Origin: a virus
Virus record (IMG/VR): IMGVR_UViG_3300031841_000433
Span: 1 to 23,336 of that record
Length of the DNA stretch: 23,336 nucleotides
Strand: one strand, 5' to 3'
Positions 4,362 through 22,590 of this stretch are shown here, in pieces. The position numbers were made by a program, and so were the translations under genes. Below the pieces are notes generated by a model, which worked only from the letters and a program-made list of their open reading frames with translations, did not search any database and had not been told where the DNA came from. Each line of letters opens with the position of its first letter. The first letter of the stretch is position 1.

Positions 4362-5204
4362 ATGGCAGTAGCATGGTTAGCTGTTACAGCAGGTCTTAGT
4401 GCAGCCTCTTCGATTGCTGGTGGTATTTCCGGTTCTATGTCAGCAAGTGCTGCGAACAGGAATGCCCAACGAAACTATGAGGCACAGCAGCGAGCAGCAC
4501 AAAGAGCCGCTGAACTGCAAAACAGTTACAACAGACTTGTCTCTGAAGCCGATAAAATTAACTATCAGCGTCAACGGGACTATCAATGGGACACTGCTGT
4601 TCAAAATTGGCAGTACCAAACTCAGATCAAAGACTTTGAGTATTTACAAAGCGCTCGTGAATACCAAGGTTCTATTGAAAATACTCAACAGCAACTTACT
4701 TACAACACTATTGCCGCTCGTCAAGCGACAGAACAAGAGCAAGCATCTATTGCTGAAATTCTGAATGAAGCTGCCTTCCAGGAAGAAGGTATGATGATTG
4801 AGCGGTTGCAAAACGAAGGTCGTGCTGCAATGTTGCAAGCAGGTGGATCACGTGCAAAAGCTCTTCAAAGTACAGTAGCGGAACAAGGTCGAAACGCTGC
4901 TATTCTCAGTGCCAGTTTACTTAGTGCTGGTCAACAGTCACAACGTAACCTACGCGATATTGCTCTGAGTAAATACGCGGATGACCTCAAAGCACGGAAC
5001 GCTATGATGATTGAACCTCAACGTCTTCCCGATATTCCTAAACCTCTTAAAGCACCTGATCGTGTCTTTGTTGAACCTATGATGGCAACTGCTGGTTACA
5101 TTCCCGCACCTGCACGTCAGAATGTTTTCGCACCTGCTATTCAAGGTGTTGGACAAGCTTTCGGCACTGCTGCTAACACTATTGCTATGGGTATGGATTC
5201 GTAA
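4362..5204 (+). CDS. gp14: Internal virion protein, T7 gp14-like
   Basis: This is probably one of the ejection proteins of the inner core, which leave the head and build the conduit through the cell envelope. It is 280 aa. The small-residue-rich hydrophobic N-terminus (AVAWLAVTAGLSAASSIAGG, residues 2-21) fits membrane insertion. A long Gln/Ala/Arg-rich helical region follows (about 35-205), with coiled-coil character and repeated AQQRAAQRAAEL-type heptads. A Pro-rich tail begins near residue 217. T7 gp14 (196 aa) has the same plan: a hydrophobic Ala/Gly/Ile-rich N-terminus, then Gln-rich helices. The gene sits where gene 14 belongs; no gene 13 homologue is present between it and the gp12-like gene. 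Its last base is the A of the next ATG. Confidence 0.82.
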   Translation: MAVAWLAVTAGLSAASSIAGGISGSMSASAANRNAQRNYEAQQRAAQRAAELQNSYNRLVSEADKINYQRQRDYQWDTAVQNWQYQTQIKDFEYLQSAREYQGSIENTQQQLTYNTIAARQATEQEQASIAEILNEAAFQEEGMMIERLQNEGRAAMLQAGGSRAKALQSTVAEQGRNAAILSASLLSAGQQSQRNLRDIALSKYADDLKARNAMMIEPQRLPDIPKPLKAPDRVFVEPMMATAGYIPAPARQNVFAPAIQGVGQAFGTAANTIAMGMDS

Positions 5205-7807
5205 TGGCACGTTTACAATATCAGCGGTCCGCCAAACCTGGCGGCTACAGACCACAAACACAAGACGACACTAATATTGCTCGTCTAAGACAAGAGACTA
5301 CGCGCCAAATTGAAGGGATGCGTCAAGCAGCTAGTGCTGAAATTGAGAATCGTCGTGAAGTTTCACGTATGATGCAGGAAGATGCTGCTGCTACTTCTCG
5401 CCAGTTGGAACGTAATTATCAAATTCAAACACAAAACACAGACCGTGAATTACGTGGTCTTCAGGCACAAGCTGCTAGAGATCAACAGCAGTTTAACATT
5501 GATCAACAAGCTAACAAAGCTATCTTCGAAAGCCTTGCTACTCTGAGTGGTACTGCAGCAAAGACTGTAAACGCACTACAGAAGCAGAGAGAAGACGAGG
5601 ATTACGAAAAGGATACGTTTACACCTACTACGGTTGACGAGCAGATTGCTGATCGTAACCAAGAGTTGCTGATGAGGTCAGCTGATTTAAACAGACTGAC
5701 CGGTATCGAGATAGCTGAAATTAATGGTGCCGATCCTCTTGCTGCAACGACACTGAAACTTGAAAGCCCTGCTTTAGGTTTTGATGCTGCAGCTGGACAC
5801 TTTAATCAGTATGCTAATGAACAGCATGAAGATTCTCGTACTGCATTCTTCAGATCAGCTGAAGAGCGTTTACAGCGCCCACTTACCTATGAAGAAAAGA
5901 AACAGCTTCTAGGTCTCCACACAGCAGGTGTTGTTGCACTTGCTAGGGATGCTGGTGTGTCTCCCCGTTTCCTCAAAAGGATTATGGGTACTATCCAGCA
6001 AAAGGATAATGCCTTTTTAAGCGTTGAACGTAAGAGAAAGCTTGATGCTGATAATGAAATACTTGTCGATAAGTCTTTGAACAACGTTTTACACGCTGAT
6101 CCGACACGACGAAACGAAGTTTTTATTACATCTTTTAGAAACGTATCCAGTGTCAAAGGTCCTGAGGAAGCGTTAAATCTTTTCCAGAAAAAGGTGTTTA
6201 CGGCAATCAACCCGAAGACTGGCAAACCTTACATGTCAGACGAAGAGATTGCTCAACTTCCTTTCTTCCAGAACGGTGTTAGGACTACCATGGCAGAAAA
6301 GTATTCTGACAAACAAGGTAATCCTACTGGCAGGTATGCTGAGATTCAAGCAGAGCGTATTAAAGTCGATCTTGAATTTCGTAAACAGCGACAGCAAACT
6401 GATAACGTTGTAAACGCTGAGATAGAAGGAGAGCTTTTTCGAGCTTTTATGGCTAATCCTACAGCTAAAAATGCTGAAGAATCTCAAAGAATGTACGTCA
6501 CTTTAACTGGTAAAGAAAGTGTTAAACTGGCTAACGCTGCTAAGCATTTAACTTACGAAGCACAGCATAGGAACAATGTTATTAGTGCTGCTAGTAAATT
6601 GCGTGATTTTGAGTTAACTCCAGAAGTTGTTGCTGGCGTGTGTTCTATTGATCCCGTTGGATGTAAACCTATTAAAGATAGAGCTGATGCATTCAATGCT
6701 AAATGGAACAGTCAAGGTTTTAAAGACTCTAAAAAAGCACTTGACAAACTGGTCAGTGGTACTACCGAAATTGGTAGCATTAAAGCTGGCTCCAGTGAAG
6801 AGTTGCGTATGAGAGCATATCTTCATGCACAACTACAAACACGTACAGCTCAGTACGAAAAAACTTTAGGTTTTGAAGCTGCTCGGTTACAAGCTGGTGA
6901 AGAGTTGGAAAAAGAGTACACTGCAAATTACCGCAATAATGTTGAGGGTAATAAGTTTTTCCGTAAAGTAACAACCAGTGGAGTTAGTTATCCGTACTTG
7001 GATAGGGGAAATGTTTCAGCCGCTGAAGCAGTGAGAACCGAAATCGGAGATTTAAAGGCGACTTCTATAGTTAATGGCCTTGACCAGGCTATTGCAAATT
7101 ACTTTAAAGATAATCCAGAGCGGCTGGCATACATCAAAAATAATTATGGTAAACCTACATTCCAACCGACTCCTCAAGAACTAGCTTTAAAAAGTTTTGG
7201 AAACGGACTCCCCTTACATACTGTTTACAATAAAGGTTTGGCAAGTGCTGGGGACGAAACTGTTTTACAATCTCCACTACAATCAAACGGTAAAGAAGTT
7301 GTGTTAACTCCCGCCCAACTTGAAATTATCAATAATCCTAATAATGGGCCAGAAGCTAAGCTTTCTGTTATCCGAAGCGTATTTAACCCCAGCTCTTTCC
7401 AAGACCACGGTACTATGCGTCCCGGTCCTATCGCTAATGCGGTAAGAATACAGACGACTGTAAGTGGTGAAGGTTTTACTGCTGAGGGTTTAAATGATGC
7501 TTATGGTAGACCTATTGTCTTCGGTTCTACAGAGGCTTTGTCAGGTTTCCAGAAACTTATCCAACTGTCTAACGGTAAGGTCAAACCTTCAGACATTACT
7601 AGCTCACAACGCAGCCATGTCCATAATGAAAAAGTGGGAGGCTCAGATACTAGCTATCACCGGGAAGGTTCCGGACTTGCTTTTGATATAACTGCTGGTC
7701 CAGCTTTGGAATGGATGAAAGCTAACCCTGAACTAGTTAAACAAGCTGGTTTTAGCACTGAAGAAGGTTATACCAGTGCACATGGTCACTACGTCTTTGG
7801 ACTGTAA
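5204..7807 (+). CDS. gp15: Internal virion protein, T7 gp15-like, fused to M15-type peptidase
   Basis: This 867-aa ejection protein has a Gln/Arg-rich helical N-terminus (residues about 20-135), a long helical body and a distinct C-terminal domain from about 780. That domain reads HNEKVGG, then TSYHREG, LAFD and HGHYVFG at the end. This matches the peptidase M15_3 pattern: HN..VGG, S.H..G.A.D, terminal H.H. Likely zinc ligands are H819, D828 and H862 (or H860), with two extra residues between the Gly and Ala of the first motif. M15 enzymes cut peptide bonds in peptidoglycan, so the domain probably opens the wall during genome entry. T7 gp15 (747 aa) has no such domain. The start overlaps the upstream stop by one base. 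The gp15 assignment rests on position and size; the M15 call rests on motifs. Confidence 0.83.
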   Translation: MARLQYQRSAKPGGYRPQTQDDTNIARLRQETTRQIEGMRQAASAEIENRREVSRMMQEDAAATSRQLERNYQIQTQNTDRELRGLQAQAARDQQQFNIDQQANKAIFESLATLSGTAAKTVNALQKQREDEDYEKDTFTPTTVDEQIADRNQELLMRSADLNRLTGIEIAEINGADPLAATTLKLESPALGFDAAAGHFNQYANEQHEDSRTAFFRSAEERLQRPLTYEEKKQLLGLHTAGVVALARDAGVSPRFLKRIMGTIQQKDNAFLSVERKRKLDADNEILVDKSLNNVLHADPTRRNEVFITSFRNVSSVKGPEEALNLFQKKVFTAINPKTGKPYMSDEEIAQLPFFQNGVRTTMAEKYSDKQGNPTGRYAEIQAERIKVDLEFRKQRQQTDNVVNAEIEGELFRAFMANPTAKNAEESQRMYVTLTGKESVKLANAAKHLTYEAQHRNNVISAASKLRDFELTPEVVAGVCSIDPVGCKPIKDRADAFNAKWNSQGFKDSKKALDKLVSGTTEIGSIKAGSSEELRMRAYLHAQLQTRTAQYEKTLGFEAARLQAGEELEKEYTANYRNNVEGNKFFRKVTTSGVSYPYLDRGNVSAAEAVRTEIGDLKATSIVNGLDQAIANYFKDNPERLAYIKNNYGKPTFQPTPQELALKSFGNGLPLHTVYNKGLASAGDETVLQSPLQSNGKEVVLTPAQLEIINNPNNGPEAKLSVIRSVFNPSSFQDHGTMRPGPIANAVRIQTTVSGEGFTAEGLNDAYGRPIVFGSTEALSGFQKLIQLSNGKVKPSDITSSQRSHVHNEKVGGSDTSYHREGSGLAFDITAGPALEWMKANPELVKQAGFSTEEGYTSAHGHYVFGL

Positions 7808-7816
7808 TTTTTAACT

Positions 7817-10800
7817 ATGGAATACGATCTTGAAGAGGCGTTTAGGTTTGACCCTGGTGAAGACAGCCTATCACCTGAACTGCAAGCTGAAGCTGCCGCT
7901 GCGCAGAAACAGCAAGCTGAACAGAATGCAACGGCTGCTGAACTGAGTCCAACCGCCCCTACGGGGGTTCAACAAGCACCTCAACAACAACAAACACCTC
8001 CTACGGGTGGTGAAGAACCGGACCAACAATGGCCCTGGGAAGAAGGTTACGATCTTGGTGACTACGCTCGCAATACAGCAGAGTCAGCGCTTGCTGCTCC
8101 GACTGGTTTGCTAGACTTTGGTGTAGATGTTATTAACAAGTTCACCGGTCAACAATTTGCTAAACCTACTAAGTTTGAAAATGAAGTAGCACAGTCTGTC
8201 AGGGAACTCTCTGCGGTTGTGCTACCGACCATTGGTCTGACTCGTTTGGGTATGGGTGGCGCCGCTGCTGCCCAAACCCGAGTTGGATGGTCTCTAGGCA
8301 ACACTGCTTTCATGAAGTTTATTGGTAGTCGTGGTGTTGAAGCTGCTGCTGGTGTCGCTGTCGGCGCTGTCAGCAGTGAATACGAAAACGACAACCTTAC
8401 TGGTAGGTTAAAGCAGAAATGGCCAAAGACCTTTGACTTTATTCCTGACAGCCTTGCTACACTAAAGACTAACTCTCCTGATGAGAAACGTCAGAAGAAC
8501 ATCTACGAAGACCTTGGTATGGGCACCGTTATTGACATTGGTCAAGGTGTCGTCAAGTTTGTAGGTGCTCTTGCTAACGCAGCTGCTAGCTTGCGTAAGT
8601 CTAATAAACTTGTGGGTGAAACCGCTGAGGCACGTAAATGGCTAGAAGGAAACTCTCCTAAACCTAGTTCTGCTGATCCAGAAGAAGCAATCGTTGAATC
8701 TGCTTTGAAGCGTGAAGACGCTTTGGATGAGATTGGTTATTACAACCTTTCTGAAAATCCTGTTCTTGATCAACGAGTCAAAGGCGTTCACGACATGTTT
8801 GACTACACCGAACTTGGTGTTCGTACTGTAGACGATTTTGGTGTTGTGGGTGCTGCTCTTGACTCCGCACGTATCGCTAAGAACCTGGACACTACTTATG
8901 GTCGTCTGGGTAACATGTTGTCTGAACCTGCTCTTAAATATGCACTGAAGAGTGGTGACAACGCTCAGGACATTGTTCTTGGTCTTGCTGATCAACTCCA
9001 CAAAGCTGGTCCTATTGGTATGGAAGGTGCATCCGGTTGGAAGGTTACTTTCAACGATGTGCTAGATGCTAACGAAAACCTTGCTATTCAGTTGTTCGAT
9101 CCTCGGATGACTAAGAGTGAAGTTCGTATGGTTCTTGAACCGTTCATCACTCGTGATGCTTCTGGTAAAGAGATCCTTGCAGAAGAAGGCTTCGCTATGG
9201 CTGCTAAGGCTCTTCGTGGCTTTGGTAGTGAGCTTACCAGCATGGACGTTGCACGCGCTCAGTCGCTGCTTGCAGGCTCTCTTACGGGACGTATCTCCGA
9301 CCTTGCAGAAGGTGCACGGATGATGGAAGGAACTGCTGCTGTGAAGGAAGCTCAAGAAAAGATTATTGACCTGATGCAGTACGTCACTCAGTTGTCTGGT
9401 TCTGCTAAGTACTACAAGAATCGGAAGATGAATCTGGTTCAAATGGTTGCTAATGGATTCAAGAACATTGAAGGTTACAACGCTGCGTCTGTTGAGCAGG
9501 CTGGTGAAGTAGCACAAAAGGTGTTCCGTGATTCCCAACAGTTTGCTTCTACTATGAGGCAGATTGCTGATAACCAACCTGAGATCATGGATCAGTTCCT
9601 GATGGCTTATGAATTGACTGATGGTGCTATTGATACCATTGTCAAGATGAATAAGTACATCCACGGTATGACGGTTGACCTCGGTAAAGGCATCATTAAT
9701 TTAACCCCTGAAGTTGAAAACAAACTTATTGCTGGTGTGTGGTCAAACATTTATAATAATGTTCTGTCTGCATTTGTTACTCCAATTCAAGCATTGGTTG
9801 GTAACTTTGGTGGAATTATTTCTCAACCAATTTCACACTTTGCTGGAGCAGCAATGGCTGGCGATGTGCAAGCTATTCAACGTGGTTGGATTGCTTACAG
9901 CTCTGTCATTGACACCATGCAGAAGGCTATGCCTTACGCTGGTAACGTGTTTATGAAAGCATCTAGGGATCCTAATTCTGTACGTGGTGGTACTCGTCTT
10001 GACTTGCTCATGCAAAGCGAGAAAGAACTTGAGTTCCTGCGTAAAGCAGCTGATACCCAATCTGCAGCAGGTAATGATGGTTTGACTTATATTGTCAACC
10101 AAATTGAAATGCTGAATGACATGGGTAAAGATCCTGTGTTCCGCTTTGGTCCTAACGCTATGACGGCAATGGACGGATTCACTGGTGTGTTTAACGCATC
10201 TGCTGAAGCCCGTTTCCGTGCTATGGATGAACTTGTTGCTGCGGGTAAACCTATCAATAAGAAGTCCGTCCAACCGATTGCGGAGAAATACTACGCAAAG
10301 ATGTTTGATGAAAGTGGAATGCTTCAGGATGAGGCTGTCAAGTACGCTACTAATGAACTAGCACTTAACCTTGACACCCCACTGGCTTCCAATGTTTCTA
10401 GTCTTGTACAACTTCTACCTGGCATGAAACCGTTCCTTATGTTCTCGAACACTGGAATCAACGTGGTAGATATTGCTGGTAAGTACAACCCTTTGCTTAC
10501 TCCTTTCCAACGTGATGTCAATGAACTTGCTTACGTTAAACTTGAAGACCTGATGGCTCAGCCGGGTAGGGTTGACGAGCTTTTGAGAGCACGTAACATT
10601 GACACTCAAGGTATGGATGTTTTGGCTAAACTCAACAAAATTGCTGATCTTAAGTACACTACTCGTGGACGTAAGGCAGCTGGTGGTTTGGCTGTAACGA
10701 GTGCTATTGGTCTTTATTCACAAGGTCGTCTGCGTGGTGATGGTCTTTACGACAAAGAAGCGCAGCGGGCACGTGAAAAGAATACCAACTGGAAGAAACG

Positions 10801-11734
10801 GACCTACATGGGACTGGACGGTAGGTGGTACTCCTATGCATGGCTAGGACCGCTTGCTGACTGGGTAGCTTTTGTAGCAAACGTTGGCGACAACTTTGAC
10901 ATGCTTGGCTCTACCTACACTGAAAGGTTCTTTGAAAAGGCAGCTTTTGTCTTTGGTGCTGCAGTAACTGACCGTACTGGTCTGTCTACTATGAAGCCCC
11001 TGATGGACATGCTGTCTGGTAACGAAGGTGCTTTGACTCGTTGGAGTGCAGGTTTTGTTAATAGCCTAGGTCCTCTTGCAGGTCAACGTAATGAATGGGG
11101 ACGTATCTTCAGTGAAGGTCTCCGTGAAGTAGATAACGATTTCTTCTCTGTCCTGGCTAACCGTAATAAATTCCTTCCTACCGCTAACCCTGACAACCGT
11201 GCACCTTACGTCTACAGTCCTGTGACTGGTAAGAAAGCAAATGGTTATGGTTTCTTGCAACGTGTGTGGAACGCCTACAGCCCTCTGCAGGTCCACTCTG
11301 GACAATCGCCTGAAGAAAAGTTCCTAGAAGAGTTTGAGTTCGATGTCAACACCACGTTCCGTACTAAGAATGGTGTGAAGTTGACAGCTAATGAGCGCTC
11401 CGCCCTGTTCAAACTGATGGGTGAGCAAGGTAATTTCCAGCGCTCCATCAATGAGATCATGGGTGATGCAGGTGACTGGCAGAGTATTGCACGTCTACGT
11501 CGGATGCGCCGTTTGGGTGTACCCTCTGATGAAGCAGATCTGCGTAAGTGGGACCAGATTCATATTCGTTTGAGCCAAGCTCGCCGTGATGCGGAAGAGT
11601 TTGCTTACGCTGAAATGGATCAGGATATGTATGCCGAGATTGAACGTCGGCAAATTGAGCAACAACTTATCCAAGAAGCCAATGTTGTTGGCGAAACTCT
11701 TGATCCCACCATTCAAGAATTGTACCGTAAGTAA
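7817..11734 (+). CDS. gp16: Internal virion protein, T7 gp16-like, without visible transglycosylase
   Basis: This 1305-aa protein is the size and position match of T7 gp16 (1318 aa), the large ejection protein. The N-terminus is acidic, then Gln/Pro-rich and apparently disordered (residues about 20-75), followed by hydrophobic Ala/Gly stretches near 125-185 (MGGAAAAQTRVG; AAAGVAVGAVSSE). The rest looks largely helical, with a basic hydrophobic region near 955-980 (RKAAGGLAVTSAIGLYSQGR). T7 gp16 begins with a lytic transglycosylase; I find no ES..G..Q-type catalytic motif in this N-terminus. The ATG at 7817 is preceded by TTTTTAACT and has no Shine-Dalgarno. The C-terminus is charged and helical. 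The body is not recognisable by motif; the call rests on gene order and length. Confidence 0.8.
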   Translation: MEYDLEEAFRFDPGEDSLSPELQAEAAAAQKQQAEQNATAAELSPTAPTGVQQAPQQQQTPPTGGEEPDQQWPWEEGYDLGDYARNTAESALAAPTGLLDFGVDVINKFTGQQFAKPTKFENEVAQSVRELSAVVLPTIGLTRLGMGGAAAAQTRVGWSLGNTAFMKFIGSRGVEAAAGVAVGAVSSEYENDNLTGRLKQKWPKTFDFIPDSLATLKTNSPDEKRQKNIYEDLGMGTVIDIGQGVVKFVGALANAAASLRKSNKLVGETAEARKWLEGNSPKPSSADPEEAIVESALKREDALDEIGYYNLSENPVLDQRVKGVHDMFDYTELGVRTVDDFGVVGAALDSARIAKNLDTTYGRLGNMLSEPALKYALKSGDNAQDIVLGLADQLHKAGPIGMEGASGWKVTFNDVLDANENLAIQLFDPRMTKSEVRMVLEPFITRDASGKEILAEEGFAMAAKALRGFGSELTSMDVARAQSLLAGSLTGRISDLAEGARMMEGTAAVKEAQEKIIDLMQYVTQLSGSAKYYKNRKMNLVQMVANGFKNIEGYNAASVEQAGEVAQKVFRDSQQFASTMRQIADNQPEIMDQFLMAYELTDGAIDTIVKMNKYIHGMTVDLGKGIINLTPEVENKLIAGVWSNIYNNVLSAFVTPIQALVGNFGGIISQPISHFAGAAMAGDVQAIQRGWIAYSSVIDTMQKAMPYAGNVFMKASRDPNSVRGGTRLDLLMQSEKELEFLRKAADTQSAAGNDGLTYIVNQIEMLNDMGKDPVFRFGPNAMTAMDGFTGVFNASAEARFRAMDELVAAGKPINKKSVQPIAEKYYAKMFDESGMLQDEAVKYATNELALNLDTPLASNVSSLVQLLPGMKPFLMFSNTGINVVDIAGKYNPLLTPFQRDVNELAYVKLEDLMAQPGRVDELLRARNIDTQGMDVLAKLNKIADLKYTTRGRKAAGGLAVTSAIGLYSQGRLRGDGLYDKEAQRAREKNTNWKKRTYMGLDGRWYSYAWLGPLADWVAFVANVGDNFDMLGSTYTERFFEKAAFVFGAAVTDRTGLSTMKPLMDMLSGNEGALTRWSAGFVNSLGPLAGQRNEWGRIFSEGLREVDNDFFSVLANRNKFLPTANPDNRAPYVYSPVTGKKANGYGFLQRVWNAYSPLQVHSGQSPEEKFLEEFEFDVNTTFRTKNGVKLTANERSALFKLMGEQGNFQRSINEIMGDAGDWQSIARLRRMRRLGVPSDEADLRKWDQIHIRLSQARRDAEEFAYAEMDQDMYAEIERRQIEQQLIQEANVVGETLDPTIQELYRK

Positions 11735-11754
11735 ACTTACACCTTTAACTAATT

Positions 11755-14700
11755 ATGTCGTGTACTGACGTACAAACAATTCAAGCGGGTAATGGGACTA
11801 AGACACAGTTCTCATTTGACTTCCCGTACATTTTCAAATCTGAGATCCACGTTTATTTCTGGAACGCTACAACTAAAGAATGGGACGAAAAGCTCACGAC
11901 TGATGGTACCTATCCTTGGCGGGTCACAGATGCTAACCCTACTATTGTAGAGTTTACTAGCACTGCTCCGCCTTCTCCTACCACCCCTACCGATCCTGGT
12001 GAACCTACGGTTGACAATGTTCGGATTCGTCGGATTACTAATCTTGATGACATCCGGGCATTGTTTAGCCCTGGCTCTGCCATTCGTTCGGATGACCTGA
12101 ACAATAACTTTGAGCAGCTTCGTTATGCTATTCAGGAGGCTAATTGCCCTGGTGTGCCTGAAGATGTTCAGAGCTACCTAGAAGAATATTACTGGGATCG
12201 TTTCGACAACACTCTGTATGATGGTAACACTTGGGTCAGCGATGACACCAAGATTGCTACTACTGCAGCGTTGGATGATCGGTTCTGGGATAAAGATGGT
12301 GAAACTATTACCCAAGCTGAGCAGAACGCAGGTTCTCCTGCAGCAGCAGATACCAACGTCTTTACTGCACTAGCTGCAGCACGTCGTTTTGATACCCTTG
12401 TTCAAACCGCTACCCCTTCGGGTTCCGACTGGGAGAACGGTAAAACTTGGTATCAAAATGATGAAGATAAAACCGTTTATGTCTGGACTGGTTCTGAGTG
12501 GGATGCTATCACTTCTGGTGGTGCTTTTACTCGTCTTGATCAAGTCATCTATGTTGACGCTACTAACGGTGATGACAACAATAATGGTCACCGTATTAGT
12601 ACTCCTAAGAAAACCATTAAGTCTGCACTGGCTGCTATCAACTCCGACTCTACGTTCGGAAACGGTAGCACCATTCTAGTCGCTCCTGGTATCTATAAAG
12701 AAGCTGCACCTCTGGACATTGAAAAGACCGATGTCTCTATCATTGGTGCGTCTGTCCGTAACGTTATTGTTCACCCGACTGAAGCTACTGAAACTGGTAG
12801 TCTGTTCCGTGTGAACAGTGGTTCGTACCTGGCAAACATGACGTTTACCGGTATGAAGGCTAGCGGTACTCGTGGTGACACTGGATCCTTGTGGACTGAC
12901 TCTGAGTTCGGTCTTCCTCCTACTCAAGGTTGGAACGTCTCGTTCCTTCCCAATGCTAAGATCTTCAAATCTCCTTATATTCAGAATTGTACTAACTTCT
13001 CTGACTCGGAGATTGATAACGATGCTCTTGACTTCTACACGGGTGATTCCGATAGAGGTCAGGCTGGTGACCTTGACTCCGCACCTACTGGCGGTGGTCT
13101 GCTAGTCAACGGTGATACCGTTCATGATGATTCTCCTCTGCGTTCGATGGTGGCTGATAGCTACACGCACGTGGCTTTGGATGGTCCTGGTATCTTTGTG
13201 ACCAACAATGGTTACGCTCAGATTACTAGCTCTTACGCTTTCTTCAACCACTTCCACATTGGTTGTCTCAATGGTGGTCAGGCTAACCTTGCTGCTTCAA
13301 CAACTGACTTTGGTCGTTTCTCGTTGGTGGCTTCTGGACGTTCTACCAGTGCAATCTTTACTGCAACTGTAAACGGTGCTGCATCTTCTGGTGACGAAAC
13401 GTTTGACATTGACAACGTTACTGCTGGTACTGACTGGTTTGGTAATGCTCAGCGTCCTGCAGACAACATGCTTGTTGAGGTTGGAGGTAATACCTATCCA
13501 ATCTTGAGTGCTGAAGAGATTACTGGTGGTTTCCGAGTTAAGATTAGCCGTCCTGATACTGCTGACCGGACTAATAACCTTGGTCTTAACGGTGCTGTTG
13601 CTGACAACGCAGCTGTGTCATTCTTCCTTCGTTCGATGATTGCTTCTAGCGGTCACACGATGGAGTACGTGGGTGCTGGTACTGACTACCGTGCACTTCC
13701 TTACAACGCAACTGGTACTTATACTGTTGGTTCTGGTACTCAACCTAATGGTGTGCCTATTGAAGCACATCAGGTTAAAGAACTAAACAACGGTAAAGTC
13801 TGGGCAGCTATCACTGACCACAACGGTAAGTTCCGTGTGGGCGATACTTTTAGTGTTAATCAGCAAACTGGTTTCGTCAGCATCCCTGCCGGTGCACTGT
13901 CTGTCAGCACTCTGCTGGAAGACCTGGACGTTAACGGCAAAGAGATTAAAACTGACACTACTAACCAAGACATCGTTCTTAACCCGAACGGTACTGGTGT
14001 AGTTAACGTAAGTACTAGCCGTATTACTAACGTTGTTGATCCTACCGGTGCACAAGACGCTTCTACTAAGAACTACGTTGACACCGAACTTGACAACCTT
14101 ACCACGTCAAGCACTGCTGAGCTGAACATCCTTGACGGTGCAACGCTTAACACCAGTGAGCTGAACATTCTTGACGGTGCGACTCTGGACACTAATGAGC
14201 TGAACCAACTGGATGGTGCGTCTCTAACTGACAATCCTACTTGGACTTCTACTACTCAGTTCCCCAGTGCTGCATCTATCAACACTCGGTTCCTAGGGTT
14301 GCTGAATGCTCTTGGTGGTTTTGTTGCTATTGCTGATGAAAACAGCTTCCCGAACGACCATCCTGATCCTTCAAACAATGCTGGCACCGTTGTGTCGATT
14401 GCCGATGCTGGTGGTCTTGCAGTTAACGCAAGTGGTGAAGCAAGCGGTCAAACCGTTGGTGGTACGACTGTTACCATTACTGGTTTCCCGACCAGCTTTA
14501 ACAGCACTACACTTCCTGCACAGCAAGGTCTGCAAGTTCAGACTACTACAACTCAAAACAGCTATACCTACCACAAAGTTATCGCCCGTGATGACGATAT
14601 TATTCGTCTGAACGATGACGTTAACGACTTCTTCCAACGCTATCGTTTTGGTGCCTCTAACCCTACCACCGACAACGATGCTGGTGACCTGTTCTTTAAC

Positions 14701-16734
14701 ACGGGTTCCGGTACGATGCTGGTGTGGGATACTTCTGGTGCTACTGCCGAATGGAAAGAAGTTCAGTCTATTGGTGAGTTCTTTGTCATTCCTGCTAGCG
14801 ACTTCCCGACGTGGAACGGCACTATCAATGACATCACTATTACCGATAATGCACCTGCCAATGCTTCACAGATTATTCTGTCTATCAACGGTGTAGTTCA
14901 GGAACCTAACACGGGTACTGCACGTCCTACTGACGGCTTTGCTCTTGATGGTTCTGTTATTCGACTGTCTGACGCACCTGCTACTGGTTCAGAAGCTTGG
15001 GGTGTGATCATCGGTTCTACTGTGAACATTGGTGAACCCAGTGCAAACACGGTGAGCAGTGATAAGATCGTTGACGGAGCCGTGATTCGAGCCAAGCTCG
15101 GTTCGGACGCTGTGGACGGCACAAAGATTGCCGACGACTCTATCGACTCCGAGCACTACGTTGACGGGTCTATTGACACGGCTCACCTCGCTGACGATGC
15201 CGTCGATGGTACTAAGCTCGCTAACACGACTGTCACCGCTGGTAGCTACACCCTGTCCAGCATCACGGTTGACGCTCAGGGACGTATTACTGCTGCTTCT
15301 AGCGGCACTGCTGCTGACCCCGACATCATCACTGAGGGTAATACTTCAGTTGAGGTTGTTGATACTGGCAGCGACGGTGAAGTCCGCCTGACGACTGAAG
15401 GCACCCGTGCGATGACGGTTGACTCGTCTCAGCGGGTTGGCATAGGCACCACTGATCCTGGCAGTGGAACAAGTGGCAACGGTAATCAGCTTGTACTTAG
15501 AAACACTGCGGCTGCTAATTCACGTTCCGGCATGACCATCATGGGCGGAAATACAGGCTTTAGTAGTATTTATCTTGCAGATACCGATAGTTCTACTGTT
15601 GGTGGATTTGAATACAGTCACAACCTTAATCAGCTGCAAGTCCGTGTTAGTGATTTAATTAGGCAAGTCATTAACACTGATGGCAACACCGGGATTGGCA
15701 CCACGTCCCCCAGTGGAATATTAGACGTAAGGCGTGATGCAAACGGCGATGCCCCAATCTTCTTTAGGAACATGGACACTACGTCCGGTTCCTCGGCCAT
15801 GACCACCACGTTGAATTTTAACTTCAACAGAACTGGTGGTGGCCTAGATTTACCTGCCGCTCAAATTAGAGCAGGTAAAGAGCGAGAGTGGGTTGGAGCT
15901 GCTGCAAACCAAGATGGATTCCTGTCATTCTTTACGACTGGAAACGAAACATCGACGGAGCGGATGAGGCTTACAAGTGGAGGTATTACTCATATTGGTC
16001 CACTATCAGCAAATGCTGGTAGTTGGGCGTCCAACATGATTGGTGCCTTGTCACTTGCTGGTAATGCTAATACAGGCGAGCAGGCTTTAACAGTCTCAAT
16101 GATGAACAGCACGCATGTTACTGCCATCATGAGGGTGGCAAGCGAGAGAAGTGCTAGTTCAGTCTTTGATTTTGCTAGATATTTCTCTGATCGTCGTTTT
16201 GACGAATCATCTGGTGGAGACCAAGAATTCCGGTTGCGTGGCGATGGCGTCGCCTTCGCAGACGGATCTTGGAACGGTGGCGGTGCTGACTACGCAGAAT
16301 ACTTTGAGTGGTCTGATGGCAACACTGCTACAGAAGACCGTCGTGGCATCAGCGTTGTTTTAGACGGCGACAAGATCCGCGAAGCCGTTGTTGGTGAAGA
16401 GCCCATTGGTGTTATCTCTGGCAATCCCAGCGTTGTTGGTGATGCTGCTTGGAATAAGTGGAACGGTAAATACCTTCGCGATGACTTCGGTACTTACATC
16501 CAAGAAGATTACGAAGTTGAGGATGAGGATGGCAACACTGTTGTTCAGCAGCGCCGCAAACTTAATCCTGATTACAACCCAGACGTTGAATACGTTTCCC
16601 GCGAACAACGTCCAGAGTGGGATTGCGTCGGTTTAATGGGCAAACTGCGAATCCGTAAAGGTCAGGTCACTGGAGCGCGTTGGATCAAGATGCGCGACAT
16701 CAGCGATACTGTCGAAGAATGGCTTGTCCGCTAA
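11755..16734 (+). CDS. gp17: Giant tail fibre/tailspike, T7 gp17-type anchor, Peptidase_G2-type C-terminus
   Basis: This is the host-recognition fibre, 1659 aa against 553 in T7. Residues 1-130 form the virion-anchoring domain seen in T7 gp17 (FSFDFPYIFKSEIHVYF; VRIRRITNLDDIRALFSPGSAIRSDDLNNNF). Residues about 264-370 start a pectate-lyase-like beta-helix (IYVDATNGDDNNNG, then STPKKTIKSALA). Residues about 788-822 carry three ELN(I/Q)LDGA repeats. Residues 1100-1186 are a DGT/DGA linker module (KIADDSI, LADDAVDGTKLA, ITVDAQGRITAAS). Residues about 1225-1310 have two GIGTT(D/S)P motifs. From about 1502 to the end the sequence (ADYAEYFEWSDGN, PIGVISGNPSVVGDAAWNKW, then VGLMGKLRIRKGQVTGARW) resembles the Peptidase_G2 intramolecular chaperone, which cuts itself off after trimer folding. 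Arginine codon use changes sharply near 15480 and 16230, suggesting mosaic origin. Confidence 0.88.
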   Translation: MSCTDVQTIQAGNGTKTQFSFDFPYIFKSEIHVYFWNATTKEWDEKLTTDGTYPWRVTDANPTIVEFTSTAPPSPTTPTDPGEPTVDNVRIRRITNLDDIRALFSPGSAIRSDDLNNNFEQLRYAIQEANCPGVPEDVQSYLEEYYWDRFDNTLYDGNTWVSDDTKIATTAALDDRFWDKDGETITQAEQNAGSPAAADTNVFTALAAARRFDTLVQTATPSGSDWENGKTWYQNDEDKTVYVWTGSEWDAITSGGAFTRLDQVIYVDATNGDDNNNGHRISTPKKTIKSALAAINSDSTFGNGSTILVAPGIYKEAAPLDIEKTDVSIIGASVRNVIVHPTEATETGSLFRVNSGSYLANMTFTGMKASGTRGDTGSLWTDSEFGLPPTQGWNVSFLPNAKIFKSPYIQNCTNFSDSEIDNDALDFYTGDSDRGQAGDLDSAPTGGGLLVNGDTVHDDSPLRSMVADSYTHVALDGPGIFVTNNGYAQITSSYAFFNHFHIGCLNGGQANLAASTTDFGRFSLVASGRSTSAIFTATVNGAASSGDETFDIDNVTAGTDWFGNAQRPADNMLVEVGGNTYPILSAEEITGGFRVKISRPDTADRTNNLGLNGAVADNAAVSFFLRSMIASSGHTMEYVGAGTDYRALPYNATGTYTVGSGTQPNGVPIEAHQVKELNNGKVWAAITDHNGKFRVGDTFSVNQQTGFVSIPAGALSVSTLLEDLDVNGKEIKTDTTNQDIVLNPNGTGVVNVSTSRITNVVDPTGAQDASTKNYVDTELDNLTTSSTAELNILDGATLNTSELNILDGATLDTNELNQLDGASLTDNPTWTSTTQFPSAASINTRFLGLLNALGGFVAIADENSFPNDHPDPSNNAGTVVSIADAGGLAVNASGEASGQTVGGTTVTITGFPTSFNSTTLPAQQGLQVQTTTTQNSYTYHKVIARDDDIIRLNDDVNDFFQRYRFGASNPTTDNDAGDLFFNTGSGTMLVWDTSGATAEWKEVQSIGEFFVIPASDFPTWNGTINDITITDNAPANASQIILSINGVVQEPNTGTARPTDGFALDGSVIRLSDAPATGSEAWGVIIGSTVNIGEPSANTVSSDKIVDGAVIRAKLGSDAVDGTKIADDSIDSEHYVDGSIDTAHLADDAVDGTKLANTTVTAGSYTLSSITVDAQGRITAASSGTAADPDIITEGNTSVEVVDTGSDGEVRLTTEGTRAMTVDSSQRVGIGTTDPGSGTSGNGNQLVLRNTAAANSRSGMTIMGGNTGFSSIYLADTDSSTVGGFEYSHNLNQLQVRVSDLIRQVINTDGNTGIGTTSPSGILDVRRDANGDAPIFFRNMDTTSGSSAMTTTLNFNFNRTGGGLDLPAAQIRAGKEREWVGAAANQDGFLSFFTTGNETSTERMRLTSGGITHIGPLSANAGSWASNMIGALSLAGNANTGEQALTVSMMNSTHVTAIMRVASERSASSVFDFARYFSDRRFDESSGGDQEFRLRGDGVAFADGSWNGGGADYAEYFEWSDGNTATEDRRGISVVLDGDKIREAVVGEEPIGVISGNPSVVGDAAWNKWNGKYLRDDFGTYIQEDYEVEDEDGNTVVQQRRKLNPDYNPDVEYVSREQRPEWDCVGLMGKLRIRKGQVTGARWIKMRDISDTVEEWLVR
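14117..14222 (+). repeat. Three tandem ELN(I/Q)LDGA coding repeats in the tail fibre
   Basis: Three successive 36-base units encode ELNILDGATLNTS, ELNILDGATLDTN and ELNQLDGASL. This 12-residue repeat is familiar from long fibres of T4-like cyanophages, where it appears in tandem. Here the copies are near-identical at both the protein and DNA levels, so copy number could change by slippage or recombination. Confidence 0.8.
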
Positions 16735-16735
16735 G

Positions 16736-16740
16736 AAGGA
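16736..16740 (+). promoter_or_regulatory. Possible Shine-Dalgarno AAGGA before the second tail protein
   Basis: AAGGA lies 12 bases before the ATG at 16753, a longer spacing than usual. The gap between them (AACTAATTAACT) is AT-rich and shares TTAACT with the sequence before the genes at 7817 and 11755. Confidence 0.4.
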
Positions 16741-16752
16741 AACTAATTAACT

Positions 16753-18243
16753 ATGGCACTAACACAAGTAAGATCTGACGGCATCGCAACAGGTGCCGTC
16801 ACCGCAACACAGATTGCAGCTAATGCAGTTACTGTTGACGACATTTCTGACGGCAGTATTAGTACGGCTAAACTGGCCGATGCTAACGTTACTACAGCCA
16901 AAATTGCTGACGACGCTGTAACTGCCGATAAACTGGCTAACACTGCTGTTACCGCCGGTTCTTACGGTGATGCTACTAATATTCCCAGCATTACCGTTGA
17001 CGCTCAAGGGCGTGTTACCGCCGCATCTACTAACGCTGTAAGCATCCCACCGTCTGTCGGTGGCGCTAATGGCGTTGACTTTAACGACAGCGTTAAGGCA
17101 CGGTTTGGTACTGACAACGACCTGCAGGTGTATCACGACGGAACTAGCGCGTTTGTTGCAGCTGATGACGTAAGAATTACGAACAATGCTGTAACAGAGA
17201 CAATGGGCAAGTTCCTTGCAAATGGAGCTGCCAGTCTTTATTACGATAACTCTAAGAAGCTGGACACCACCTCCACCGGCATCAACGTAACCGGTGAAGC
17301 AGTGGTCGATGGGTTGGACCTCGGCAACGGAGAACTAGACGCAGGTACTGGATCTATATTCGGCGGAACCAGTAGGCAGACCTACATCTCAAAAGGCAAT
17401 GGCACGGTTCAAGTGTATGTCTCCAATAGCGGTAACGACAGTACTGGTACTGGAGAATCCAACAGCCCTGTCCGCACCATTAGCCGTGCCTGTGAACTGC
17501 TTCCCAAATTGGCAGGCAACCAAACCTTAGAGATTCGACTTCAAGGTAACTACACCACGACTAACGGTGGTCAAAATATCAAAGGATTTGGTTTTAATGG
17601 ATCCAATCAAATTGGTCCTTATTTGAGGATTCTTGCTGATAGTGGGACAGTTACAGTCAGCTTGCAACATGCATGGGAAATGCATAATGTTCATGGATTC
17701 CGTATTCAGAATATAGCTTTTGCTGTGGGTTCGGGGTATGCAGGAGGCGTATATTTCCATGACTGCTCCATGGGTCGCATTTACAGCAGCTGCTCATTTG
17801 AATCCAGCAGCAACTATGGCTGGTCTAACCGCATTAGCTTCTACAAGTGTTTCGACATTGATTGGCAGGCAGATATCGCTCTGACAGCTCAAGCGAGTGC
17901 CGGGCTTGGTGGATTTGTGACCATCCAAGGTGGGTTTATCCATTGGTCTGGCGATATTGACAAGTCTGGAACAAGATTTGGTAATCATGCTATTTGCGCT
18001 TTTGACAACGCTATGCTTCACATAAGCAGCTGCACTATTAACAACTTCCAAAACGGACTCACTGGAGGGAACAATCACTACAACAACGAAGCTGGAGCTA
18101 GGATTGTGACCAACTCCGTAACGATTCAAAACTGTGCTACTGGTTTGTATCTACGCAATATGAGTCACGTTAGAAAATACAGTATTTCCTACAGTGGTAA
18201 CTCAACTAATGAGCTTATCACCTCTAACTCTCAAACCGACTAA
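16753..18243 (+). CDS. Second tail fibre/spike-like protein with beta-helix
   Basis: A 496-aa protein probably acting as an accessory host-binding subunit or spike. Residues 8-96 are linker repeats (IADDAVTADKLANTAVTAGS and SITVDAQGRVTAAS) closely like residues 1100-1186 of the fibre just upstream. Residues about 106-135 (VDFNDSVKARFGTDND, then LQVYHDG) resemble cyanophage fibre modules. Residues about 219-490 look like a right-handed beta-helix, opening with VQVYVSNSGNDSTG and continuing with short turns such as GFRIQNIAF, MLHISSCTI and NSVTIQNCATGLYLRN. No T7 gp17-type anchor and no self-cleaving chaperone are present, so how it joins the virion is unclear; the shared linker may be a contact. 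The ATG at 16753 follows 18 bases after the fibre stop. Enzyme activity on polysaccharide is possible but no catalytic residues are evident. Confidence 0.75.
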   Translation: MALTQVRSDGIATGAVTATQIAANAVTVDDISDGSISTAKLADANVTTAKIADDAVTADKLANTAVTAGSYGDATNIPSITVDAQGRVTAASTNAVSIPPSVGGANGVDFNDSVKARFGTDNDLQVYHDGTSAFVAADDVRITNNAVTETMGKFLANGAASLYYDNSKKLDTTSTGINVTGEAVVDGLDLGNGELDAGTGSIFGGTSRQTYISKGNGTVQVYVSNSGNDSTGTGESNSPVRTISRACELLPKLAGNQTLEIRLQGNYTTTNGGQNIKGFGFNGSNQIGPYLRILADSGTVTVSLQHAWEMHNVHGFRIQNIAFAVGSGYAGGVYFHDCSMGRIYSSCSFESSSNYGWSNRISFYKCFDIDWQADIALTAQASAGLGGFVTIQGGFIHWSGDIDKSGTRFGNHAICAFDNAMLHISSCTINNFQNGLTGGNNHYNNEAGARIVTNSVTIQNCATGLYLRNMSHVRKYSISYSGNSTNELITSNSQTD

Positions 18244-21002: not shown

Positions 21003-22081
21003 TGTTTGAAGACGATCCCGGTTTTATGCCGGACTACAACGCACCAATCAGTATAGGTGAACAATTTCGTGCACTACAAAATTTAGGATCTAAAGCTGTT
21101 AATTTTGTTGGCGGTGCTGTCCGCATGGTTCCGGGGTTTTTGGGTCAGCTTCGCCAGGACATTAAAACAGAAGCCCAAGCTCCTTTAAAACCAAAAGCAC
21201 CAACTGTTGCTAGTCCTGTTGTAAGCGGTGTGCAATCTACACTAGGTTTAGCAGAAACTCAAGCTAAAACTGAAGCTCAGTTAATGAACTTAGCTGCAAC
21301 TGGAGTAGAACGTGCTGGACAAATGTTTGGTATTAACGTGCCTGCTCCTGTGTCTGGTGCAGCAGCTTTATTAGTTGGAGCAGTGTTACCTGGACCTGGA
21401 GAAGGGATTAGTTTTGCTAAAGGATCAGCATCATTTGGTAAACAGTTTGTTAGCCGTAGCCGTGAGGTAGAAAAACTATCCAGTAAAATTACTGAATATA
21501 GAGCTATTGGTAAAACTTCTAGAATTGGTAAAACTGAAGCTAAACTTTCTAGCGCACAATCTAACGTTTTACCATTTACTCCAGAAGATCCTAAAGCTTA
21601 TCCTCCTAATTTAACTGCTGCAAAAGAAATAGTTACTTCTGAGCAACTTAAGCGACAAACTACTGACACACTGCATCTACACCACAAACTTCCTAAAGGT
21701 ATGTCTGCTGCATTCTTTGATAGAATGGATCAGTTTATCAGTAAAGGAGTTGCTGGTCCAGACGACTTGGCTGACATGGCTGATGAAGCTACTAAAGCTG
21801 GAGTACGCCCTGGTGACGCTAGGTCAAACATTCTAGCCATCGCAGATAGACCACACACTACTTTGCACACTGAAATGCGTGCTATGGGTAGTGGTATGTT
21901 TGGCAGAATGGAGCTAGGTAAAAAAGAATTGATGGCTGCTATGAAAGAAGCCAAAGATCCTACCTCATTAAAAGCTTTGTGGAAAGCGTGGCTTAATGAT
22001 GATGCCAAATATTTGGTCGAAACGGCTGAAGTTTGGGAACCTCTTGACGCTCTCCTTAAAGAAGTACGGAATATGAAATGA
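21002..22081 (+). CDS. Unknown protein with C-terminal toxin-like His-rich nuclease motif
   Basis: A 359-aa protein I cannot name. Residues 1-60 contain a Val/Gly-rich stretch (SKAVNFVGGAVRMVPGFLG). Residues 60-75 are Pro/Lys-rich. Residues 112-133 are hydrophobic (PAPVSGAAALLVGAVLPGPG), perhaps membrane-active. Residues 150-185 are basic. The C-terminal part has LHLHHKLPKG (H225, H227, H228), then N276 in SNILAIADRPH and H285-x3-H289 (HTTLH). The order HH, N, H-x3-H is that of the HNH/colicin-like nuclease fold of LHH- and AHH-type toxin domains. It uses far more TTA leucine codons (about 10 of 33) than the structural genes, hinting at a different origin. The ATG overlaps the HNH stop by one base. 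A nuclease or effector role is inferred only. Confidence 0.55.
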   Translation: MFEDDPGFMPDYNAPISIGEQFRALQNLGSKAVNFVGGAVRMVPGFLGQLRQDIKTEAQAPLKPKAPTVASPVVSGVQSTLGLAETQAKTEAQLMNLAATGVERAGQMFGINVPAPVSGAAALLVGAVLPGPGEGISFAKGSASFGKQFVSRSREVEKLSSKITEYRAIGKTSRIGKTEAKLSSAQSNVLPFTPEDPKAYPPNLTAAKEIVTSEQLKRQTTDTLHLHHKLPKGMSAAFFDRMDQFISKGVAGPDDLADMADEATKAGVRPGDARSNILAIADRPHTTLHTEMRAMGSGMFGRMELGKKELMAAMKEAKDPTSLKALWKAWLNDDAKYLVETAEVWEPLDALLKEVRNMK

Positions 22082-22590
22082 CCCACCCTATCATCGTTAC
22101 AGGACCGCAACGATCTGGCACTACTATAGCTGCCCGTATTATTGCTGAACAAACTGGCGGTGTGTACGTTGATGAGCTTGACTACTGTCTTCCTTTACCG
22201 GATAAGGCAGTAGTTCAGGCTCCTTTTCTTTTACACCAAGTATTAGAAGCATCTTACATGATACCTAATGTTAGGTTTGCTTTTATGTATCGCGCACCTG
22301 GAGACATTGTAGCCAGTATGGAGCGTGTCGAATGGTATGCTGACTGGTATGAAGATCCTGATTTCTACCCACATTACGTTAAGCACTGCTACGAATATAT
22401 TGATTTACTAAAGCGGACGCTACGGAAAGATCAATGGTTTGATGTGCAATACGAATCGTTAGTACACCACCCACTGTTTGTCCAGGAACGAACTGGATTT
22501 ACAGTTAAACAATATTTACCCAACGTCCCTGAGGGACCAGCTACTTGGAGAGACAATGACTATGACTACATTGGACTTGTTAAGAGATGA
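22078..22590 (+). CDS. Short sulfotransferase-like protein
   Basis: A 170-aa protein starting with a P-loop, residues 8-16 (TGPQRSGTT), the 5'-phosphosulfate-binding form of sulfotransferases. Residues 67-80 (RFAFMYRAPGDIVAS) give the second signature, with R72 and S80 placed to bind the 3'-phosphate of PAPS. The end (WFDVQYESLVHHPLFV) matches the usual sulfotransferase YE-x-Lxx-P element. The family is normally about 250-300 aa, so this is a compact version, lacking much of the acceptor-binding part. If active it would move sulfate from PAPS to a sugar, lipid or protein; the acceptor is unknown. It overlaps the previous gene by 4 bases (ATGA) and terL by 29 bases. A P-loop kinase is the alternative. 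Confidence 0.68.
   Translation: MTHPIIVTGPQRSGTTIAARIIAEQTGGVYVDELDYCLPLPDKAVVQAPFLLHQVLEASYMIPNVRFAFMYRAPGDIVASMERVEWYADWYEDPDFYPHYVKHCYEYIDLLKRTLRKDQWFDVQYESLVHHPLFVQERTGFTVKQYLPNVPEGPATWRDNDYDYIGLVKR

Follow-up and report, generated by a model that had tools for sequence, protein, structure and literature searches.

An M15_3-type peptidase domain at the C-terminus of a gp15-like protein of a marine cyanobacterial virus, at a site where dissimilar modules replace one another

The DNA studied is a 23.3-kb record of a marine cyanobacterial virus (IMGVR_UViG_3300031841_000433; 23,336 nucleotides), which is called the window below. Its first 17 kb form a T7-like virion module with the end of the capsid gene, two tail-tube genes, genes for gp14-, gp15- and gp16-like proteins and the fibre genes. 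The three internal genes and all features described within the gp15-like gene lie on the plus strand. The gp14-like protein (4362..5204, 280 aa) was assigned by a match to phrog_20153 (251 bits) and by synteny. Between it and the gp16-like internal virion protein (7817..11734, 1305 aa; phrog_6651, internal virion protein, 1084 bits) lies the gp15-like ejection (internal virion) protein of 867 aa (5204..7807), the ATG of which overlaps the stop codon of the gp14-like gene. The same order of gp14, gp15 and gp16 is found in isolate records and in IMG/VR relatives. NCBIfam gave no match for any of these three proteins or for two further ORFs of the window.

The core of the gp15-like protein comprises residues ~1–740. 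Residues 1–741 can be aligned to the same gene in IMG/VR relatives, and a weak match to phrog_24152 covers residues 1–188. A profile of 14 core sequences matched no phage protein among the PDB sequences, T7 gp15 included. Since the core is without detectable similarity to T7 gp15 structures, the identity of the protein rests on synteny; recognition of gp15 homologues by size and synteny has been described (PMC8954989).

The compared loci, IMG/VR relatives as well as isolates, are labelled with L-numbers (L001, L009 and so on). L004 (IMGVR_UViG_3300032087_000526) shows 99.5% identity to the window over 10.3 kb and its gp15 is 100% identical. The nearest isolate is Synechococcus phage S-RIP1 (L001; Autographiviridae, Kajamvirus), with a gp16 that is 66% and a gp15 that is only ~25% identical. 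In the S-RIP1 record gp15 is split into two ORFs (5603-5887 and 5977-8340), as is gp16 (8349-9140 and 9143-12346), and gp15 of L009 is split too; sequencing errors and real breaks are the candidate explanations. Elsewhere in the window, two adjacent fibre-like ORFs (11755-18243) share repeated segments, e.g. TKLANTTVTAGSYTLSSITVDAQGRITAAS, and a 170-aa ORF overlapping the terminase frame (22078-22590) starts with a P-loop-like GPQRSGTT and appears sulfotransferase-like by eye.

An earlier note on this DNA had proposed a peptidoglycan peptidase of the M15_3 type fused to the end of the gp15-like protein, and four lines of evidence, namely Pfam, tblastn, a profile match to 1lbu and structural alignment, agree on such a domain. 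Pfam Peptidase_M15_3 (PF08291, cut-off 23.2 bits) was matched with 25.8 bits by the whole protein and with 30.5 bits (E 4.2e-7) by the tail alone. Using tblastn we found domains with 38–45% identity in T4-like cyanophages (E 5e-11 for the whole protein, 5e-13 for the tail), the only carriers of the domain in the phage collection searched; homology to their proteins begins at residue ~754. A profile of 13 sequences matched 1lbu (E 7e-4), the Streptomyces albus G DD-peptidase (muramoyl-pentapeptide carboxypeptidase), with the first-ligand motif in register with SRHMYGHAAD of 1lbu. Residues ~750–867 (~118 aa; 7451..7804) are thus an M15_3-type zinc metallopeptidase domain, as identified by PF08291, cyanophage homology and predicted fold. 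The domain lies at the very end of the protein as proposed, but it starts near residue 750 (nucleotide ~7450), earlier than the residue ~780 that had been given.

Hydrolase domain and gp15-like core form a single ORF with no frame break. When the M15 module of the window was compared with that of an 88%-identical relative (L034), dN was 0.078 and dS 0.589 (dN/dS ~0.13). The domain is under purifying selection, and the low dN in comparison to dS argues for a working domain. A bacterial origin of the module was also considered: bacterial genomes scanned with the module's patterns yielded no relative, which excludes only close kin there.

The AlphaFold model of the domain is of moderate confidence (pLDDT 71.6, pTM 0.67) and weakest at an inserted GSG (pLDDT under 50). 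Aligned with VIA-align, the predicted fold was closest to M15/VanY/VanX/LdcB enzymes: rows 1–22 were all M15 or hedgehog (LAS) structures with Z from 6.0 to 3.4 (4jid LdcB 6.0, VanXYg 5.8, VanYB 5.6, 1lbu 5.0), and the first unrelated row had 3.3. The structural match to M15 on which the earlier proposal had been staked was therefore found. Foldseek alone gave no PDB match with E<=0.001 for the same model, which would suit a mere chance resemblance of the motifs to M15; given the agreement of the four lines of evidence this explanation is practically refuted.

The motifs HNEKVGG (residues 807–813), SYHREG (817–822), LAFD (825–828) and HGHY (860–863) occur in this order, and the predicted zinc ligands are those named before: H819 (7658..7660), which aligns with the His of the 1lbu motif, D828 (7685..7687) and H862 (7787..7789, in A859-H860-G861-H862). 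All three are invariant in the 13 sequences, H862 within an invariant GH(Y/F) column. R803 (7610..7612), matched to the Arg of ‘GGFRSV’ in 1lbu, is likewise invariant and counts as a substrate-type Arg.

The first two ligands are unusually spaced. SYHREGSGLAFD in the window corresponds to SxHxxGxAxD plus two residues; the pattern H-x2-G-x3-A-x-D with two extra residues, to which the earlier note had drawn attention, is real, but restricted to the window and L025/L034. The usual H-x6-D spacing is present in the other podoviral homologues (L144, L157, L195) and in every myoviral one examined, e.g. as SYHLVGRALD in L144 and SYHMVGRALD in L157, which lack the two-residue insertion. The PF08291 profile tolerates a longer H-to-D spacing. 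Counting back from D828, the usual position of the His is occupied by E821. Judging from these residues, H819 is the ligand in a lengthened loop or else E821 has assumed its role; the model is least certain exactly at the insertion between H819 and D828.

M15 enzymes have a catalytic acid three residues ahead of the last zinc ligand, namely D194 in 1lbu and E181 in VanX. No Asp or Glu is present at this place in the window, where A859 is located at −3 and H860 at −2, with E852/E853 nearby. The corresponding region reads E-W-H in L144 and D-W-H in L157, and the cyanophage homologues in the 13-row alignment have no consistent acid before the third ligand either. M23 enzymes, and 1lbu as well, have an HxH pair, the first His of which participates in catalysis. 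H860 may therefore stand in for the catalytic acid. Since no acid occupies the usual position ahead of the third ligand, catalytic activity of the domain is predicted as no more than likely.

Because of A859 the main rival explanation is a dead wall-binding domain, i.e. the M15 fold and metal site would be kept, catalysis would be lost, and the domain would bind peptidoglycan and anchor the ejection conduit. The altered H-D spacing and the cyanophage homologues without a consistent acid would fit such a loss. On the other hand the three zinc ligands and R803 are all invariant, dN/dS is as low as ~0.13, H860-x-H862 resembles the M23/1lbu pair with its catalytic first His, and the modules that replace the domain at the same site are mostly recognised hydrolases. 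We regard a purely binding domain as unlikely.

The replacing modules were surveyed in relatives found via gp16 and in isolates, altogether 100 loci, which yielded 74 different gp15 tails. When the last 115 residues of these tails were clustered by single linkage, 14 mutually dissimilar clusters resulted: M15-like (12 tails), M23 (11), CHAP-like (9), permuted M23-like (9), decayed SLT with an M15-like end (8), SleB-like Hydrolase_2 (7), M15_3 (5), SLT (4), phage-tail lysozyme (3), lysozyme-like of the S-RIP1 type (2) and four singletons. The Pfam cut-off was passed by SLT, M23, Glucosaminidase, Phage_lysozyme2, M15_3 and one Hydrolase_2, while CHAP and some other groups score below it; no Pfam match was obtained for the M15-like, decayed-SLT and S-RIP1 groups, whose names come from motifs only. 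In close relatives the position of the window's M15 domain is taken by nine or more other types of tail end, and hydrolase domains are also present on gp15 of the isolates S-CBP4, KBS-P-1A, S-CBP1 and S-SRP01. The gp15 end is a site where dissimilar modules, mostly wall hydrolases, replace one another. The fusion of M15 to a gp15-like protein consequently stands, but the uniqueness it seemed to have in comparison with T7 does not: hydrolases at the gp15 end are common in cyanopodoviruses and have a precedent in K1E/K1-5.

Two further observations concern the tails. In gp15 of L144, L157, L142 and L145 an SLT-like stretch, its catalytic motif seemingly lost, precedes the M15 or M15-like end, as if the peptidase had made the decayed SLT glycosidase dispensable. 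The C-terminus of P-SSP7 gp15 (L056:3222-5735) contains two repeats of a ~45-residue WxKIPNxIGY unit with no Pfam hydrolase.

The C-terminal module of L022 (7630-7995) looks like a circularly permuted M23, in which SGNxGxTSTGxHLD, normally the last motif, comes first and is followed by RGSHGIDYG...FLHG. The same kind of module was seen in L024, L015, L028, S-CBP1 (L054:4842-5234), P60 (L060:3748-4173) and L061-L140, and it occurs in at least 163 places in IMG/VR. In an hmmsearch against 5kqb its halves match in swapped order. Pfam M23 was matched by 13 of the 31 members, by the first of them only over profile positions 3-51. The model of the module is confident (pLDDT 92.9); with Foldseek alone no match reached E<=0.001, and an order-dependent structure search returned one weak M23 row (2hsi, Z 3.3) covering part of the module only. 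The module is probably a circularly permuted M23, the permutation being read from the profile order.

Replacement of the tails can be followed in the DNA of related pairs. L009 and L010 show 95.5% identity up to L009:7479, no similarity over the next ~500 bp, and 97.6% identity over 4.4 kb from 7979, the end of gene 15; the unrelated stretch encodes M23 in one phage and a CHAP-like domain in the other. Identity before and after the break was 84.8% and 89.5% for L022/L025 (permuted M23 versus M15_3), 73% and 81% for L029/S-RIP1, 95.9% and 98.7% for L142/L012, and 84.7% and 94.4% for L161/L162. The same break was found in L202/L158, L171/L173 and L163/L187. Between L022 and L034 the gp15 core is 74% and gp16 91% identical and the tails are unrelated; L022 and S-CBP1 share a 61% identical tail, with core and gp16 only 21–23% identical. 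At least 30 module changes are required on a tree of 66 gp16 proteins built with FastTree. Both this tree and the single-linkage clusters are rough, and the pairwise DNA swaps are independent of both. The gp15 core is mosaic as well: window positions 5504-6403 (residues ~101–400) are only 6–30% identical to L034, compared with 89% for gp16 and 88% for the M15 tail outside this mosaic core.

At the junction between core and M15 domain the window has the motif MRPGP (7415..7429, residues 738–742), and MRxG(SP) stands ahead of dissimilar modules in relatives. Of the 74 gp15 proteins, 34 have MRxG within their last 330 aa versus ~2.5 expected, an expectation that ignores kinship. The motif, which is often followed by SP, stands before modules of eight classes, and within a class its distance from the C-terminus is nearly constant. 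A linker, a recombination joint and a processing site are candidate roles. Release of a free enzyme from an internal start at the Met of MRxG was rejected, as by eye no Shine-Dalgarno-like sequence was present in the 24 upstream bases of any class. As a tentative wider proposal, the gp15 C-terminus of cyanopodoviruses could be a dedicated exchange socket with a conserved MRxGSP joint, at which wall-penetration chemistry is swapped as readily as tail-fibre tips, with modules drawn from podo- and myoviruses and host walls or defences selecting on cleavage chemistry.

In T7, gp14, gp15 and gp16 exit the head and form a conduit that crosses the outer membrane, the periplasm and the inner membrane. 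By analogy with T7 gp15 the gp15-like protein would be packaged in the head and ejected into the periplasm, where its C-terminal tip would cleave stem peptides of the cyanobacterial peptidoglycan and thereby let the ejection conduit through. Passage of T7 through the wall is assisted by the transglycosylase of gp16 (PMC8954989). Pfam detected no glycosidase in the gp14-, gp15- and gp16-like proteins of the window; the gp16-like protein matched no Pfam family at E<=1 and has no recognisable transglycosylase, and gp16 of P60, P-SSP7, Syn5, 9515-10a and S-CBP1 carries no Pfam hydrolase. With no glycosidase in these three proteins, cleavage of stem peptides rather than glycan at entry, which had been predicted beforehand, is the natural reading. 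In S-RIM50 the M15 gene adjoins the baseplate hub genes gp26 and gp51, which points to an entry role, and the sequence comparisons suggest an exchange of M15 domains between phage groups. The hydrolase would be a covalent part of a virion structural protein, its virion status being assigned by synteny. Altogether we think it fairly probable that the M15_3 tip of a packaged and ejected gp15-like protein cleaves stem peptides at DNA entry and that the gp15 end acts as a socket. If homologous recombination took place in the conserved gp15 core or at the joint, and also at the start of gp16, which is nearly identical, the complete enzyme would be exchanged in a single step; phages almost the same elsewhere would then attack the wall with different chemistry.

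The domain might instead be mainly the phage endolysin, acting late in infection and not at entry. PHROGs labels related gp15 proteins ‘endolysin’ (phrog_90), among the genes of the 23-kb window (about half of the genome) none was recognised as a separate endolysin, and several relatives of near-genome length have no Phage_lysozyme, Amidase_2 or GH108 gene. However, the other half of the genome lies outside the window, and the domain, which ends a large gp15-like protein, has no start site of its own. Moreover L151 (gp16 68% identical) possesses two hydrolase domains on gp15 in addition to a separate glucosaminidase-like gene after the fibre, and separate genes for a lysozyme or a glycoside hydrolase are likewise present in P60, S-CBP1 and S-SRP01. 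We consider an endolysin role improbable and prefer action at entry. The glucosaminidase-like protein of L151 (15108-15668) is 95% identical to that of the freshwater phage S-SRP01, and the two phages are otherwise distant, a probable case of recent exchange.

Entry hydrolases are usually viewed as a fixed, conserved piece of the T7-like ejection machine. Here one position carries at least ten dissimilar tails, mostly recognised hydrolases, in nearly identical phages. Wall chemistry at entry thereby becomes open to testing as a trait of host range or fitness, and the phages offer natural chimeras for dissection of the ejectosome as well as modules for cutting Gram-negative walls. Automatic ‘endolysin’ labels (phrog_90) on gp15 genes probably hide ejection proteins.

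Compared with known enzymes, the window domain shares fold, ordered ligands, the Arg and the SxHxxG motif with 1lbu and VanX/VanY/LdcB, and differs by two more residues between ligands 1 and 2 and by an Ala where those enzymes have the acid preceding ligand 3. The T4-like cyanophages S-RIM50, S-SSM5, P-RSM4 and S-SM1 have the same M15_3 subfamily (38–45% identical) with all ligands conserved, but within a different, larger protein of a contractile-tailed phage and with normal H-x6-D spacing; these proteins are labelled ‘lysozyme murein’ or ‘endolysin’ and encoded in virion clusters. S-RIP1 has homologous gp14, gp15 and gp16, but its gp15 tail is an unrelated lysozyme-like domain. T7 gp16 likewise carries a wall hydrolase and is an internal virion protein that a T7-like phage ejects; its enzyme is an N-terminal cutter of glycan strands (lytic transglycosylase), whereas here a predicted peptidase is located at the C-terminus of gp15 and gp16 has none. 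For K1E/K1-5 lysozyme activity of the gp15-like protein (gp35) has been reported, and domain swapping between the ejection proteins gp15 and gp16 has been described (PMC8954989). HTVC010P-like pelagiphages have a hypervariable region with an internal virion protein (PMC10504331). Among the open papers searched, we found no report of many-family replacement of the gp15 end in cyanopodoviruses. Hydrolases on gp15 homologues and gp15/gp16 swapping are hence known already; apparently new is that, unlike the lysozyme of K1E/K1-5, the module here is M15 and belongs to a replacement by many families within one lineage.
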